A stretch of 64,000 bases of DNA from Sinomonas humi (lineage in GTDB: Bacteria; Actinomycetota; Actinomycetes; Actinomycetales; Micrococcaceae), in the NCBI RefSeq assembly GCF_000802235.1, contig NZ_JTDL01000079.1:1-64000 (forward strand), read 5' to 3'. Numbering within the stretch: position 1 is the stretch's first letter; the number at the start of each line of letters is the position of its first letter. Made by a program: the position numbers and the translations under genes. The notes beneath the pieces were generated by a model, which had not been told where the DNA came from, did no database searches, and saw nothing but the letters and a program-made list of their open reading frames with translations. This document shows positions 46,190 to 51,786 of this stretch, piece after piece.

Positions 46190-46309
46190 CGGTCCTGCCT
46201 TCCGGTGATGGCTGATACCTGCTGCAGCGAAGCGCTGCGATTTGCCTTTCCAAAACTACGAGTCCATTTCCCGGTTCGGGTTCCCCTAACCCCATAGGCC
46301 CTCACAAGA

Positions 46310-46479
46310 GTCCACAGCATGTGAGTCTTGCGTGGCAAATTATCCACAGGCTGTGGAGGAGAGAGCGGACGAACTCAGCTCAGCTGGCTCTCTCACTCGC
46401 CATTGCGGGGGAAAGCCCGAAGAGGAGGTAGGAATGACAACTCTGTAAGTTATCCACTCATGTGGACAACTTTGTGGAG
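46310..46479. promoter_or_regulatory. DnaA-box-like cluster A
   Basis: Within 170 bp: TTATCCACA (46340-46348), TTATCCACT (46450-46458), TGTGGACAA (46461-46469; the minus strand reads TTGTCCACA, the high-affinity actinobacterial box), plus TCCACA at 46311-46316. TCCACAG-G-CTGTGGA (46343-46357) is a perfect palindrome. A CTGTAAGTT core (46443-46451) precedes the second box. No gene lies here (46190-46483). Confidence 0.7.
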
Positions 46480-46483
46480 AAGT

Positions 46484-46798
46484 TCAGTCCTCAGGCTCCA
46501 CGAAGCCGTCGACCACAAGGTCGCGGTACTCGGGGTGGCGCCGCAGAAACGCTCGGACGTAGGGGCAGTACGGCCGGATCCGCGCGCCCTTCGATCGGAT
46601 GTCGTCTAGGGCGAACTTCACAAGGCGACTCGCCAGGCCGAGGCCGGAGTAGCCTTCGTCGACCTCAGTGTGGTCGAACGCGTAGACGGACCCCTCGTCC
46701 TGGATCCGGTAGAGCTCCATGCCGATGCGCTTGTCCGCGTCGCGAAGCTCGTAGCGATGCCGCTCCGGCACGTGAACGATGTCGATCTGGTCGGTCAT
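46484..46798 (-). CDS. GNAT-like N-acetyltransferase (YjdJ-type)
   Basis: A 104-residue mini-GNAT: RYELRDADKRIGMELYRI, the cofactor-binding YSGLGLASRLVKFALD with the Q/RxxGxG/A-like loop, and PYCPYVRAFLRRHPEY at the end. This short form is the YjdJ group of uncharacterised acetyltransferases. The start overlaps the upstream pirin stop by 4 bp, so the two genes are translated together. Its substrate is unknown. Confidence 0.85.
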   Translation of the reverse strand: MTDQIDIVHVPERHRYELRDADKRIGMELYRIQDEGSVYAFDHTEVDEGYSGLGLASRLVKFALDDIRSKGARIRPYCPYVRAFLRRHPEYRDLVVDGFVEPED

Positions 46799-47853
46799 CC
46801 GTGATTCCTTTCTCGTGCGCCTCTGCGGGGGCGAAGGCGGACGTGGGGGAGCGCGGGAGCTGGAAGGGGGCCCTCCCCGCGGGCGAGCTCGACGACGGGT
46901 CCGAACCGCGCGTCGTCGTGCGCCGCGCTCTCTTCCTCGCCCCTGCTCGCTGTCTCGGCCCCGATTTCGCGCTGCCATGCCGCGCGGTATCCAACGATCT
47001 CGTCGTGGTCCCGGCCGACGAAGTTCCACCACATCGTGATCTCCTCCCCGAAGGGAGTCCCGCCGAGAACGAGAAGACGCAGCGGCTCGTCGCCCTCATT
47101 GGCGAGCCGAAGGGCGGCCCGATCAGGGGCCAGATAGGCAAGCACGCCCTGCGGCACCCTCGTCCCCTCCACGGTGACGTCGCCGTTGTCAGCGAGGACG
47201 CCATGTTCGTAGGTGGGGTCGACATCAAGCACGACGGCGGTGTGCGGCTCGAGCGTGAGCTCTGCGCCGAGGAGGGGCGAATAGGTCCGCACAGGGGAGA
47301 CGGACCCGAGGAGGGATCCGAGGAACACGCGCGCCTCGCCTCCGTGTCCGCCTCGGACGTCCACGAGTGCGACTGGTTCCGGCACATAGCGCTCGAATCC
47401 CGGGTCGGTGTGGCGGGAGGCATCGGGCAAGGCTGTCCAGAGCTGGGCGCCGTGCAGAACGGTGGTTCCAGACGTCGAATACTCGGAGTGATTGATTCCA
47501 CGGCCGGCCGTCATCAGATTGAGCTCCCCCGGCCGGACGAGCGCCTGGTGACCCGCACTGTCTCTGTGCTCGATCTCGCCCGTGAACAGCCAACTCACCG
47601 TCTGGAGCCCAGTATGCGGATGAGGGGGAACACGCATCCCTCCTGTGCGCGAGACATCGTCTGGGCCGTAATGGTCCAGAAAGCACCACGCGCCGATGAG
47701 GCTCCGCTCCTTCGAAGGCAGGGTCCGCCGGACGGCCATGGCCCGCGGGCCGCCGAGGGGCACATCGCGGGGAACGATCAGTTCGACCGCGGCGCTATCC
47801 ACGTTGTCCGCCCCGCACAGTGTTTCCTGGGGCTCGAGTTCGAGATTGCTCAT
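46795..47853 (-). CDS. pirin family protein
   Basis: A 352-residue bicupin. The N-terminal cupin carries PPHPHTGLQTVSWLFTGE with the His residues that bind iron, and AGRGINHSEY follows. The C-terminal cupin has GGTPFGEEITMWWNFVGRDHDEI. Pirins act as redox or quercetinase-type proteins. The C-terminal 35 residues are charged and Arg-rich. Coupled with the GNAT gene by an ATGA overlap. Confidence 0.88.
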   Translation of the reverse strand: MSNLELEPQETLCGADNVDSAAVELIVPRDVPLGGPRAMAVRRTLPSKERSLIGAWCFLDHYGPDDVSRTGGMRVPPHPHTGLQTVSWLFTGEIEHRDSAGHQALVRPGELNLMTAGRGINHSEYSTSGTTVLHGAQLWTALPDASRHTDPGFERYVPEPVALVDVRGGHGGEARVFLGSLLGSVSPVRTYSPLLGAELTLEPHTAVVLDVDPTYEHGVLADNGDVTVEGTRVPQGVLAYLAPDRAALRLANEGDEPLRLLVLGGTPFGEEITMWWNFVGRDHDEIVGYRAAWQREIGAETASRGEEESAAHDDARFGPVVELARGEGPLPAPALPHVRLRPRRGARERNHG

Positions 47854-47929
47854 GGCACTGGCCTCCTCCGCCCGAGCCTAATCCGAAGTGGGCTCGGGTT
47901 GTGCACTTTCCAACAGGCCGTATCCCCAA

Positions 47930-48060
47930 AGTTATCCACAGGTGTGGATTAGCCGCTGCATTAAGGGGGTTGGGCGCCTGGAAGGCCCTACAGAGCGGGA
48001 AAAGCTGGGAAAACTACAGCGCTGTAAGTTACCCACACTGTGGAAAACCCGTGTGGACAA
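47930..48060. promoter_or_regulatory. DnaA-box-like cluster B
   Basis: TTATCCACA (47932-47940), TGTGGATTA (47943-47951, minus TAATCCACA), TTACCCACA (48029-48037), TGTGGAAAA (48039-48047) and TGTGGACAA (48052-48060, minus TTGTCCACA). The palindrome TACAGCGCTGTA (48015-48026) overlaps a CTGTAAGTT core at 48022-48030. The 323-bp spacer 47854-48176 holds this cluster and the ArsR operator but no gene. Confidence 0.72.
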
Positions 48061-48114
48061 GGGGCGGCGAGAGCCTCTTGACCTTCGCGATACGGCGACC
48101 TAAGCTGGTTTTAT

Positions 48115-48130
48115 TCAACCAAATCGTTGA
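48115..48130. promoter_or_regulatory. candidate ArsR operator
   Basis: TCAAC (48115-48119) faces GTTGA (48126-48130) in an AT-rich inverted repeat 47 bp before the ArsR start. A second GGTTGA at 48141 repeats the half-site. This is typical of ArsR autoregulatory sites. Confidence 0.45.
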
Positions 48131-48176
48131 TAAACAGAGCGGTTGATTACCTGATGGTCCATCCGAAAGGCATCCT

Positions 48177-48566
48177 GTGGAGACTGCAACCGCTAATCCC
48201 AAAACCGCCGAGGAAACCCGACTCAACCGCGCTTTCGCTGCTCTCTCGGATCCCCTGCGCCGGCGCCTTGTAGCACGTCTGGCCCAGGGAGACGCCACGG
48301 TGAACGAACTTGCCGAACCGTTCGCCGTCACCCTGCAGGCCGTCTCGAAGCACCTCAAGGTGCTCGAAGAAGCCGGCCTGATCACGCGCAGTCGCGACGC
48401 CCAACGCCGCCCCTGCCATCTGGACGCCGCCGCATTGGGCCGCCTCACGGCTTGGCTGGACGGCTACCGCCAATTGGTCGAGGAGCGCTATGAACGCCTC
48501 GACGCCCTTCTCGCATCGGAGGAACACCATCATGACCACGACCAAGACCACCCAGGTCAGCGCTGA
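48177..48566 (+). CDS. ArsR-family transcriptional regulator
   Basis: A 129-residue ArsR winged-helix protein (LSDPLRRRLVARLAQGDATV, ELAEPFAVTLQAVSKHLKVLE). GTG start with AAAGG upstream. No metal-binding Cys pair is seen; the His/Asp-rich C-terminus (EEHHHDHDQDH) could bind a metal but lies in the region that overlaps the next gene. The pair ArsR plus AHSA1-type SRPBCC is a common actinobacterial unit. Confidence 0.87.
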   Translation: METATANPKTAEETRLNRAFAALSDPLRRRLVARLAQGDATVNELAEPFAVTLQAVSKHLKVLEEAGLITRSRDAQRRPCHLDAAALGRLTAWLDGYRQLVEERYERLDALLASEEHHHDHDQDHPGQR

Positions 48567-49017
48567 GCCCGGACTCCCGTTTGTGGATGTGATCCGCGAG
48601 TTCGACGCCCCCGCAGAGCGCGTCTACCGGGCGCACGTCGATCCGGAACTGTTCAGCCAGTGGATCGGGCCCCGCAGATACGCGACGACGATCGACCGCT
48701 TCGACGCCCGGAGCGGCGGTTCGTACCGCTTCGTCCAATCCGACGACGACGGGCTTTCCTTCGCCTTCCACGGGTCCTTCCATGAACTGACGGAGCCGCG
48801 CCGGATGGTGCAGACGTTCGAGTTCGAAGGGGCGCCGGGCCACGTTTCACTCGACGCAGCCGAGATCGAGCCGCTCGAAGACGGGCGCTGCCGCCTCACG
48901 GTGCACTCGACGTTCCAGTCCGTCGCCGCGCGCGATGCGATGCTCGAGGCTGGAATGACGGACGGAATGAACGAGGGCTACGAGCGCCTCGACGAACTCC
49001 TGAGCCGCGAGGCCTGA
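48532..49017 (+). CDS. SRPBCC/AHSA1 protein in operon with ArsR
   Basis: A 161-residue AHSA1-type helix-grip protein (IREFDAPAERVYRAHVDPEL, SQWIGPRRY, GSYRFVQSDDDG). The ATG at 48532 has GGAGGAA 9 bp upstream and overlaps the ArsR gene by 35 bp. ArsR-coupled AHSA1 proteins are frequent; their ligand is not known. A hydrophobic small-molecule response is the usual guess. Confidence 0.82.
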   Translation: MTTTKTTQVSAEPGLPFVDVIREFDAPAERVYRAHVDPELFSQWIGPRRYATTIDRFDARSGGSYRFVQSDDDGLSFAFHGSFHELTEPRRMVQTFEFEGAPGHVSLDAAEIEPLEDGRCRLTVHSTFQSVAARDAMLEAGMTDGMNEGYERLDELLSREA

Positions 49018-49057
49018 GCGCGGGGTCTGAGCCCCAATCAGTCCCTAGCCTGCTGAG

Positions 49058-49232
49058 TCCACAGCCACTCCAGGAGCGATATCCACAGCTGGGGAATGCG
49101 CGGTGGGAGCTGGGCTCTCACAAGGAGCTCCAGCTCCCGTCAGCACTGGGATCCCCGTGGTCTAACTACAGATCTGTAAGTTGTGCACACTGTGGATAGC
49201 CACTGTGGAAAACCGGGACCAAGTGTCCACAG
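49058..49232. promoter_or_regulatory. DnaA-box-like cluster C
   Basis: TATCCACA (49080-49087), TTGTGCACA (49181-49189), TGTGGATAG (49191-49199), TGTGGAAAA (49204-49212) and GTGTCCACA (49223-49231), plus TCCACA at 49058-49063. The perfect palindrome TACAGATCTGTA (49167-49178) overlaps CTGTAAGTT (49174-49182), the same layout as cluster B. The spacer 49018-49237 contains no gene. Confidence 0.7.
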
Positions 49233-49237
49233 CGGGA

Positions 49238-50113
49238 CTACGTGCCGACGGTAGAGGGCTGCGTGAGGCCCAGGCCTCCGGCTCGGACGGCGGTCACGAT
49301 CACGAGGATCGCCACCACCGCGACCATTCCGCCGATCTGGACTGCGAGGCGGTACCGGCCGCGGGGCGCGTAGGCAATGATCGCCGTCGTCACCCCTCCG
49401 GTGACAAGTCCGCCGAGGTGCGCCTGCCAGGCGATTCCCGGGACCACAAACCCCAACACCGCATTGAGGGCGATGAGGACGAGGAGCTGGCGGACGCTGC
49501 CTCCCCGCTGGCGAACGACGACGAAGAGCGCCCCGAAGAGCCCGAAGATCGCGCCCGAAGCCCCGATCACAGCGGTCATGGAGACCGGGGTCAGGAGGAA
49601 GAATCCGACCGAGCCGCCGAGCGCGGAAATCAGGTAGACCAAGAGATAGCGCCATCGTCCGAGCACCGGCTCGAGCACCCGCCCGAAGATCCACAGGGTG
49701 TACATGTTGAGCCCGATGTGAAGGATGAAGCTCTGCGAGTGCAGGAAGGCGCTCGTGAGCATGCGCCACGGCTCGGTGCCGGTGAGGACGGTCGCGTACG
49801 CGAAGTCCTGGAAGACGACGTCGTTCGGCAACAGCCACTCGAGAACGTAGACCAGCACGCACAGGCCGATGATCGCCCAGGTCACGACGGGCTGGCCCGA
49901 CCGCCGGAGGTTTCCTCCGTACGGACCACGAGGCCCCTGCGCCGCGAGTTCGCGCACGCAGTCGACGCATTGAATGCCCACCGCGGCCGGCCGCTGGCAG
50001 TCCGGGCATGCCGGACGCCCGCACCGCTGGCACCTCACATAGGAGACGCGGTCCGGATGGCGTGGGCAAACCGGGGGAGCGGCCGGCTCAGCGGGGGGCA
50101 TTCCGTAGCTCAT
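49238..50113 (-). CDS. rhomboid family intramembrane serine protease
   Basis: A 291-residue rhomboid. The catalytic Ser187 lies in GASGAIFG and the His232 in WQAHLGGLVTGG, with HIGLNMYTLW before. A zinc-ribbon-like N-terminus (Cys16, His19, Cys28, Cys31, Cys36, Cys39, Cys49, Cys52) precedes six helices. Location next to a cyclophilin gene near gyrA is conserved in this group. Targets are unknown. Confidence 0.9.
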   Translation of the reverse strand: MSYGMPPAEPAAPPVCPRHPDRVSYVRCQRCGRPACPDCQRPAAVGIQCVDCVRELAAQGPRGPYGGNLRRSGQPVVTWAIIGLCVLVYVLEWLLPNDVVFQDFAYATVLTGTEPWRMLTSAFLHSQSFILHIGLNMYTLWIFGRVLEPVLGRWRYLLVYLISALGGSVGFFLLTPVSMTAVIGASGAIFGLFGALFVVVRQRGGSVRQLLVLIALNAVLGFVVPGIAWQAHLGGLVTGGVTTAIIAYAPRGRYRLAVQIGGMVAVVAILVIVTAVRAGGLGLTQPSTVGT

Positions 50114-50121
50114 GCGGAGGG

Positions 50122-50667
50122 TTAGAGCTGCTCGACGTCGATCGAGCTGATGACGACGTCCTCGACCGGGCGGTCCTGAAGGCCCGTGCGGACACCCTCG
50201 ATCTCGTCCACAACCTTCTTCGACTGCTCGTCCGCAACCTCGCCGAAGATCGTGTGCTTGCCGTAGAGCCAGCTCGTGTCGACGGTCGTGATGAAGAACT
50301 GGGAGCCGTTGGTTCCCTTGCCGCCCTGGACGCCCGCGTTCGCCATGGCGAGCTTGTACGGTTCCTTGAAGTTCAGCTCCGGATGGATCTCGTCGTCGAA
50401 CCGGTAGCCGGGGCCTCCGATGCCCTTGCCGAGCGGGTCGCCGCCCTGGATCATGAAGTCCTTGATGATGCGGTGGAAGATCGTGCCGTTGTAGAGAGGG
50501 GTCCCCGTCTTGTCCTCGCCGGTCTCCGGGTGGGTCCAGGACTGCTCGCCCGTCGCGAGTCCCACGAAGTTCTTCACGGTCTTCGGCGCGTGATTGCCGA
50601 AGAGGTTGACCACGATGTCGCCGTGGTTCGTGTGGATGGTGGCCTTGGCGGTTGCATTAGCACTCAT
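50122..50667 (-). CDS. ppiA: peptidyl-prolyl cis-trans isomerase (cyclophilin type)
   Basis: A 181-residue cytoplasmic cyclophilin. FHRIIKDFMIQGGDP and NGSQFFITTVDTSWLYGKHTIFGEV hold the catalytic Arg and the active-site Phe/Trp/His pattern. The ATG at 50667 is preferred over longer reading. 8 bp upstream of the rhomboid on the same strand, so they are probably co-transcribed. It speeds proline isomerisation in folding proteins. Confidence 0.93.
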   Translation of the reverse strand: MSANATAKATIHTNHGDIVVNLFGNHAPKTVKNFVGLATGEQSWTHPETGEDKTGTPLYNGTIFHRIIKDFMIQGGDPLGKGIGGPGYRFDDEIHPELNFKEPYKLAMANAGVQGGKGTNGSQFFITTVDTSWLYGKHTIFGEVADEQSKKVVDEIEGVRTGLQDRPVEDVVISSIDVEQL

Positions 50668-50832
50668 GCCGCCATTGTTCCACGGGCACGTCAGAGGTTG
50701 CGGGGCACCCTCGGGCGTTCTGCGGTGGGTGAAATCCGGGAACCCCATGGCACGGAATGCCTCGTTTTCGTAGCATACGGCGTCTCGCTCTCGTAGGCTG
50801 GCGATGGACCTAGCAGATATCTGGAGGTAGCT

Positions 50833-51786
50833 GTGAAGAAATCATTGGAGAAGACCGTCACGACCAGCGTCGAGAACGCGCGCGATTGGGCCCAGCCCCG
50901 CGTCGACGCGGCCGTGGAGTGGGCCGTCCCGAAGATCCAGCAGGGTCTCGATGCCGCCTCCCCGAAGGTCCAAGAGGGCCTCAAAACCGCCGCGAACAGC
51001 CTGGCTGAGGGCGTGGCAGTCGTGACCCCAAGGATCCAGGAGGGCCTTTCGCACCTCGGCCCGAAGATCAGCGAACTCGTCGACACCACCTCGCCGCGCA
51101 TTCATGAGGCTGTGGACAAGGCCGGTCCCGTGATCAAGGACGCTGCTGACCAGATGCTTCCCCGCATCTCGGAGGGCCTCGCGACCGCGGCAGAGACGGT
51201 GAACCGCAGTCTTTCCTCGGCTCCGGGGCAGGTCGACGCCGTTGCTCAGAAGCTCGCAGAGTCCGGCATCGTGCGCCAGGCCGACGCCGCCACGAAGCAG
51301 GCAGTTGCCGCGGCGCAAGAAGCCGCTCATCAGGCAACGAGCCAGCCCGGGAAGAAGAAGGGGCGCGGCTTCCTCGTGTTCGGTGTGGTGGCAGCCGCGG
51401 TCGCCGCGGGCGTCGCTGCCTGGCGCGCGGCGAAGCCGGTCGAGGACCCGTGGAAGACGCCCGTTCCGGTCAAGCCCGTCCCGGTGACGCCGCCGTCGTC
51501 ATCTTCGTCGCAGTCTGTGGCCTCGGCGCCTCAAGGAAGCACCTCGGCTCCTACGGCCTCCACTCCGACGAAGGAGACGGCTGAGGACACCGTCGTATCC
51601 GAGGCCACCGACGCCTCCGGTGCCGCCGCCGAGCCCGCCCCTGTCTCCGCCGTCGACACCTCGATGGGCCCGGAGGCCGCAGAAGGCGAGGAAAGCGATG
51701 CCAAGGGCGAAGCCAAGCACGTCGCGAAGGATGCCACGGCGGCGATGCGCGACATCCACAACGCCAGCCAGGACGGGGAGTCCTAA
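50833..51786 (+). CDS. amphipathic 11-residue-repeat membrane-associated protein
   Basis: A 317-residue protein. Residues 22-120 comprise nine consecutive 11-residue repeats, most starting with Pro (such as PKIQQGLDAAS, PRIQEGLSHLG, PKISELVDTTS, PRIHEAVDKAG, PRISEGLATAA), with the layout of an apolipoprotein-type amphipathic helix. A short helix follows a Lys-rich stretch (GRGFLVFGVVAAAVAAGVAAW, about 178-197), and the tail is Pro/Ser/Thr-rich and acidic. The first half may lie on the membrane surface. GTG start with GGAGG upstream. Not a family I can name. Confidence 0.65.
   Translation: MKKSLEKTVTTSVENARDWAQPRVDAAVEWAVPKIQQGLDAASPKVQEGLKTAANSLAEGVAVVTPRIQEGLSHLGPKISELVDTTSPRIHEAVDKAGPVIKDAADQMLPRISEGLATAAETVNRSLSSAPGQVDAVAQKLAESGIVRQADAATKQAVAAAQEAAHQATSQPGKKKGRGFLVFGVVAAAVAAGVAAWRAAKPVEDPWKTPVPVKPVPVTPPSSSSSQSVASAPQGSTSAPTASTPTKETAEDTVVSEATDASGAAAEPAPVSAVDTSMGPEAAEGEESDAKGEAKHVAKDATAAMRDIHNASQDGES

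Follow-up and report, generated by a model that had tools for sequence, protein, structure and literature searches.

Three near-origin copies of a class-wide DnaA-box element in Sinomonas humi that probably acts on DnaA

The window analysed here, i.e., a stretch of 64,000 nucleotides at positions 1 to 64,000 of contig NZ_JTDL01000079.1 from Sinomonas humi (family Micrococcaceae, order Actinomycetales, class Actinomycetes), carries three intergenic clusters of DnaA boxes, A, B and C, at a distance of 14.6–17.5 kb from the start of dnaN (63878). Each cluster contains a copy of the same element, about 50 bp long, in which a dyad, TNACA-N4-TGTNA, is followed after 1 bp by a DnaA box and then by two reversed boxes ("> < <", where the signs give box orientation). 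We consider it probable (roughly 0.7) that A, B and C are copies of a near-origin element that regulates DnaA, either as a sink or as a nucleotide switch, with a partner protein bound to the dyad, and that this element is directed at DnaA. The element itself is class-wide, and three copies with genes between them are what is particular to Sinomonas.

Boxes were called at no more than one mismatch to TTNTCCACA. They start at 46340 (>), 46352 (<), 46450 (>), 46461 (<), and 46473 (<) in cluster A, at 47932 (>), 47943 (<), 48029 (>), 48039 (<), and 48052 (<) in cluster B, and at 49079 (>), 49181 (>), 49191 (<), 49204 (<), and 49223 (>) in cluster C. Exact TTGTCCACA occurs twice in the clusters, at 46461 and 48052 and both times reversed, and exact TTATCCACA at 46340 and 47932; the boxes of C are weaker, with no exact TTRTCCACA, one exact TTTTCCACA, and the rest at one mismatch. 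Copy A of the element spans 46431–46481 on the plus strand, with the dyad at 46435–46448 (TGACA-ACTC-TGTAA) and boxes at 46450–46458 (>), 46461–46469 (<), and 46473–46481 (<). Copy B (48011–48060, plus strand) has the dyad at 48014–48027 (CTACA-GCGC-TGTAA) and boxes at 48029–48037 (>), 48039–48047 (<), and 48052–48060 (<), and copy C (49163–49212, plus strand), which lies between convergent genes, has the dyad at 49166–49179 (CTACA-GATC-TGTAA) and boxes at 49181–49189 (>), 49191–49199 (<), and 49204–49212 (<). An upstream ">" box stands 97–110 bp before the first element box in all three clusters, and is paired with a "<" box only in A (46340–46360; boxes 46340–46348 and 46352–46360, supported by genus sequences) and B (47932–47951; boxes 47932–47940 and 47943–47951). 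The upstream box of C is ATATCCACA at 49079–49087, and a further DnaA-like box, GTGTCCACA, follows copy C at 49223–49231, both on the plus strand. These results bear out the first-pass annotation, which had described boxes in both orientations in the three spacers, two exact TTGTCCACA boxes, and a shared core, CTGTAAGTT, that in B and C overlaps palindromes and is followed by boxes at nearly the same spacing. The core is found at 46443, 48022, and 49174 and only four times in the 4.42-Mb genome as a whole, three of them in A–C; together with the 12-bp palindromes it constitutes the right half and the middle of the 14-bp dyad, and the box starts that follow lie 10–11 and then 12–13 bp apart.

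A sequence-only profile built from 32 copies (R1) gives 54.2 bits for copy B (E 1.8e-15), 50.4 bits for C (E 2.7e-14), and 45.8 bits for A (E 7.5e-13) on 180 kb of the window's contig (E values for 184 kb), where the next match reaches 16.4 bits. The copies lie outside the dnaA–dnaN and rpmH–dnaA intervals in which oriC would be placed, and in the oriC spacers of the same genome R1 has no match at E≤1. The consensus of the 32-copy alignment is GAATNACA-N4-TGTAAGTT-NTCCACA-N-TGTGGANAA-N3/4-TGTGGATAA, with 26 invariant positions, of which 14 were imposed by the picking pattern and 12 were free; the free ones include ACA in the left dyad half and TGTGGA in the last box. The strict 14-bp dyad ends one base short of the first DnaA box, and the conserved extension TGTAAGTT enters this box by two bases. 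All three boxes are present at no more than one mismatch, with the same two start-to-start distances as in A–C, in 34 of the 45 Sinomonas clusters. In some families (f23, f24, and f32) the dyad adjoins the third box, not the first, which indicates that dyad and triplet are partly separable modules. Operators of the LexA, MtrA, BldD, ParB, and CRP types were considered for the dyad and set aside on consensus sequence, as half-site or spacing differs. A scan of the clusters for terminators gave one, at chance level.

The first-pass annotation had also judged a chance origin unlikely, and whole-genome pattern counts (4,416,081 bases in 156 contigs) agree. Exact TTRTCCACA occurs 48 times, compared with 18 for the reversed-pattern control, and neighbouring exact boxes within 130 bp form four pairs genome-wide (one in A, one in B, and two in the parB–trxA interval), where 48 randomly placed sites would give a mean of 0.065. 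One exact box each is also present in the dnaA–dnaN spacer and in the 5′ end of dnaA. The gap pattern TCCACA-TGTGGA-TGTGGA is found in two places in the genome, one of them in A. A search for the dyad alone returns 12 places against three for the reversed control, and among A–C only A is included, since B and C start with CTACA. Clusters of one-mismatch boxes were compared on 180 kb of the window's contig, where a cluster at 172.95 kb has as many such boxes as B and gives no match to R1. It lies 107 kb from dnaA (C134:172953-173084; L006:12953-13084) and comprises six DnaA-like boxes in about 130 bp, including one exact TTGTCCACA. A single isolated TTGTCCACA is seen at 51111–51119 of the window, within a 317-residue open reading frame (ORF) beside ppiA. 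The parB–trxA interval (C134:74355-74761; L001:14355-14761) holds four exact TTATCCACA in 407 bp; its ORFs look doubtful, and VSRET recurs in their translations, which is presumably what parS sites would give.

The arrangement is conserved well beyond S. humi. All 15 Sinomonas genomes searched have exactly three clusters of at least three boxes in 19 kb around a rhomboid gene, with exact CTGTAAGTT in 34 of the 45 clusters, and R1 returns four matches in two of these genomes and three in the other 13. In one Sinomonas genome, copy C is separated from the rhomboid gene by about 2 kb, which include a match resembling the major facilitator superfamily. For searches over more than 40 genomes, stricter filters were applied. 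In the family, the strict pattern is present in 38 of 245 genomes (reversed control, one), and R1 at E≤0.01 matches 239 of 240 sampled genomes and all 32 genera, with 1–10 matches each when weak partial ones are included. At E≤1e-4, matches are found in 68 of 198 genomes across the order, 15 of which belong to the family, and a second profile built from 33 order-wide copies (R2) matches 129 of 296 genomes of the class at the same threshold, most of them once. In the phylum, 23 of 296 genomes match; the 12 that fall outside the class score no more than 29.1 bits, and in one of these a weak crgA-like match (E 3e-4) stands directly before the element match. Several genera have tandem copies at distances of 260–350 bp (loci L210, L214, L218, L220, and L222), and in one genome of genus g9 (G075) a strong match is accompanied, inside 0.7 kb, by three that are weaker or partial. 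Five Gordonia loci (L139, L154, L158, L184, and L197) show two adjoining direct copies of the dyad and a DnaA-like box; their distance, measured in L139, is 33 bp.

The position of the element is equally characteristic. In the window, copy C faces the 3′ end of a rhomboid-family gene (49238–50113, minus strand; Pfam PF01694, E 9.5e-30), which is a conserved neighbour by synteny, and this gene is followed by a second conserved neighbour, a ppiA-like cyclophilin gene (50122–50748, minus strand; PF00160, E 4.8e-43). Apart from Pfam-checked genes and a search for CrgA, gene names were assigned by similarity to the window genes or by reading. Outside the family, crgA, rhomboid, or ppiA lies within 2 kb of the element in 56 of the 59 genomes read, and 47 have crgA plus rhomboid or ppiA nearby. 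Each of the 51 crgA matches and each of the 46 rhomboid matches has its 3′ end toward the element, and of the 41 loci that hold both genes, 39 have the element between these 3′ ends. At least one of the sought neighbours accompanies 60 of 70 named-genome loci with the exact pattern, and eight of the 59 outside-family loci (f22 and similar) carry a 140-residue-type gene as well. The Sinomonas crgA is found on another contig (C4), with no box cluster behind it. The exceptions among the 59 are one f57 genome and two f3 genomes in which the element lies on the dnaA side of rpmH: in G246 (L245:3034-3082) it is directly between rpmH and dnaA, at the origin itself, and in G333 (about L104:1501-1550) it lies past rpmH at the end of the record, where dnaA would be expected but is not seen. 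Matches in genomes of the Rothia/Kocuria type (L059, L062, L065, and L066; L061 and L064) are not next to rhomboid. Their neighbours, as named by reading, are either a sodA-like gene or a pair of pdxH- and thiM-like genes that enclose the element, and some of them are doubled.

Because R1 and R2 rest on pattern-picked copies, crgA was chosen as an anchor that is independent of the letters of the element. CrgA was detected in 289 of the 296 class genomes, and 40 of the 167 genomes lacking an R2 match were sampled, with 400 bp 3′ of crgA taken as the flank (six flanks were shorter or cut by contig ends, and were used where present). At least one box is present in 35 of the 40 flanks, at least two in 31, and at least three in 21, whereas shuffling in two-base blocks leaves on average 0.44 loci with two or more. 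Summed over flanks of at least 380 bp, there are 109 boxes on the 3′ side of crgA versus 4 on the 5′ side. The strict dyad occurs 3′ of crgA in 17 of 40 loci, whereas the 5′ side has it in none of the 40 and shuffles give 0.045; at 10 of the 17 loci a box starts 0–1 bp after the dyad. The "> < <" triplet is found in 15 of the 40 3′ flanks, in none on the 5′ side, and in none of 100 shuffles. Five f37 genomes (L248–L252), very probably Streptomyces, have 5–8 boxes within 400 bp behind crgA and no strict dyad there.

A functional anchor is provided by mycobacteria. In a locus of family f22 (L233) the gene order is ppiA, the 140-residue gene, the element, and crgA, the last confirmed by Pfam, and its PpiA aligns with PDB entry 1w74, the M. 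tuberculosis protein, at 323.6 bits over all 162 residues. By gene order, the spacer with the element corresponds to the Rv0010c–Rv0011c spacer. As described by Hicks et al. (PMC7738170), DnaA binds the Rv0010c–Rv0011c (crgA) spacer by in vitro DNA affinity purification sequencing (IDAP-seq) and electrophoretic mobility shift assay, and chromatin immunoprecipitation sequencing (ChIP-seq) places DnaA at the homologous site in M. smegmatis. The Sinomonas copies share the general location of this site, near the origin and on the ppiA side, in that they lie beside the rhomboid–ppiA genes, with crgA on another contig. The element very probably binds DnaA, which for Sinomonas is deduced from sequence.

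The first-pass annotation had proposed that the clusters act on DnaA as sinks or reactivation sites. The first part, action on DnaA and not on neighbouring genes, is well supported because box order and spacing are kept class-wide, the place near the origin is fixed, most spacers lie between two 3′ ends, and the mycobacterial counterpart is bound by DnaA; between sink and reactivation, the sequence does not decide. In the mechanism that we envisage, DnaA, whose binding has been demonstrated for the syntenic spacer of mycobacteria, would occupy the "> < <" core. The adjoining dyad would be taken up by another protein or by additional, weakly bound DnaA. The complex would then act on DnaA, either by retaining it shortly after replication of the origin region, by shifting its nucleotide state, or both, and the outcome would be that initiation is timed relative to growth and division, with control of neighbouring genes not being the chief role. 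The three Sinomonas copies may have arisen from an ancestral single or tandem site in the rhomboid–crgA spacer, as the arrangement in relatives suggests, with the ArsR–SRPBCC and pirin–GNAT genes coming to lie between them.

Several observations weigh against this reading. The training copies of both profiles were picked by the GTAAGTT pattern, or by a model built from copies so picked, so that the counts favour that form. Eleven of the 45 Sinomonas clusters lack a full triplet at one mismatch per box, and five of the 40 crgA-anchored loci have no box at all. None of the sought neighbours is seen at 10 of the 70 named loci, some of them cut by the locus end, one f57 locus lacks a known neighbour, and the Rothia/Kocuria-type matches adjoin other genes. 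Local control is possible for copies A and B, both upstream of genes and B between divergent ones, and for the mycobacteria-like f22 loci, where the 140-residue gene has the element on its 5′ side (in L233, its 5′ end faces the element). Finally, PMC7738170 describes longer cells and an unchanged initiation rate in mutants of the mycobacterial site, not the simplest outcome for an initiation timer.

As to how the element would act on DnaA, a function like that of a DnaA-reactivating sequence (DARS) is a tentative possibility. In this view, ADP-DnaA would sit head to head on the opposed boxes I and II, which would promote exchange of its nucleotide, and the partner on the dyad would act as the gate. 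The "> < <" order, which the element has in common with DARS1 and DARS2 of Escherichia coli, is consistent with such a role, as is the report in PMC8682772 that DARS boxes I and II are opposed and that head-to-head DnaA contacts stimulate ADP release. Against it, the spacing of boxes I and II is off by 3–4 bp, R2 has no match at E≤10 to the DARS1, DARS2, and datA stretches of E. coli, and three boxes in this order may have other causes. A more far-reaching version is similarly speculative. In it, the element would serve actinobacteria as their counterpart of the DARS/datA control loop, retained in a single spacer near the origin through most of the class, and a dimeric protein conserved across the class would, from the dyad, switch the nucleotide state of DnaA on the "> < <" boxes. 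One copy would then be the site that is under selection in clinical strains of mycobacteria, and Sinomonas would have a natural three-dose version.

A pure sink, i.e., titration of the datA or DnaA-box cluster (DBC) type, in which the boxes only soak up DnaA after early copying, with a dyad that is either incidental or a weak pair of DnaA sites, is about equally tentative. A place near the origin would double the sites early, extra boxes surround each copy, and the many boxes behind crgA in the five probable Streptomyces genomes are in line with titration. Reviews describe near-origin DnaA-box clusters of Bacillus subtilis and Streptomyces coelicolor as repressing initiation. Titration does not need a fixed order, fixed spacing, or an adjoining dyad, and yet these recur across families; moreover, the single match in most of the matching class genomes provides few sites.

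Local transcription control, with the dyad as an operator (for example of the ArsR-type gene by B) and the DnaA boxes adding cell-cycle control of the neighbours, is improbable. It is favoured by the location of B in the divergent spacer between the pirin and ArsR genes, by that of A upstream of a 202-residue ORF with no Pfam match, by the ArsR gene that also adjoins copies in several Arthrobacter loci, and by the 5′-side location in f22. The genes concerned are a GNAT and a pirin gene between A and B (46484–47853, minus strand; PF14542 and PF02678; the GNAT start, at about 46798, is not fixed) and an ArsR-type regulator with an AHSA1/SRPBCC-type gene between B and C (48177–49017, plus strand; PF12840/PF01022 and PF08327). 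Copy C, however, lies between convergent genes, as do the copies in nearly all loci with both crgA and rhomboid, and the element stays while its neighbours vary; a local regulatory role would account neither for these 3′–3′ spacers nor for the change of neighbours, though it is possible for A, B, and the f22 copies. In addition, a scan of 46190–49240 with the sigma-70 consensus only gave no promoter-like match, and expression of the two genes flanking the mycobacterial site is unchanged in dnaA mutants according to PMC7738170. More improbable still is that the copies are relics or accessory parts of an origin, or a repeat that spreads and has no present function: the two f3 genomes with the element on the dnaA side of rpmH, the tandem copies, and the displaced Rothia/Kocuria-type copies would fit, but across the class the dyad and boxes keep to one spacer, as a spreading repeat would not, and the oriC spacers of S. 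humi itself are devoid of profile matches at E≤1.

Comparison with DARS is based on the genomic stretches of E. coli that carry them. In a box scan, the cores of DARS1 and DARS2 read "> < <" with start-to-start distances of 14 and 12 bp, and share with A, B, and C the opposed boxes I and II and a box III oriented as II. The distance between II and III agrees (12–13 bp in the element and 12 in DARS), but that between I and II is shorter by 3–4 bp (10–11 versus 14), and because of this mismatch the element is not filed as a DARS, although it may work like one. Unlike DARS, it also has an adjoining dyad and a place near the origin. With E. coli datA and the B. subtilis DBC it shares the presence of dense DnaA boxes in non-coding spacers outside oriC, but the datA box positions, which were scanned for boxes only, include no such triplet; datA is characterised by DnaA boxes together with an IHF site and promotes hydrolysis of ATP by DnaA. 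The S. coelicolor cluster (Smulczyk-Krawczyszyn et al. 2006, as cited in reviews) is likewise an actinobacterial DnaA-box cluster near the origin that is said to repress initiation; it is known to us by review description, and may be the cluster behind crgA in the probable Streptomyces genomes or another one. Further literature was drawn on (PMC5742627, PMC4451416, PMC4585315, and PMC10950094).

The first-pass annotation took a near-origin set of this kind to be undescribed. The three-copy set is particular to Sinomonas, but the element is not: it is class-wide, the mycobacterial copy has already been described as a DnaA site, and the Streptomyces cluster is cited in reviews. On the class-wide element, searches of Creative Commons-licensed papers found no publication. 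To our knowledge, control of DnaA in actinobacteria is poorly known, and a near-origin element that is kept over much of a class, has a predicted partner site, and may help time DNA copying makes this control directly testable. The closest relative is the mycobacterial site, which occupies the same gene spacer and likewise is a box cluster with a palindrome, at about 13.6 kb in record coordinates (PMC7738170). That site is single, whereas the element is class-wide, has a defined dyad and three-box form, and is present in three spaced copies in Sinomonas. The authors of the mycobacterial study find "no obvious correspondence" in other species and give its role as unknown. Through the present comparison, this cryptic mycobacterial DnaA site gains a family of relatives and a defined architecture.

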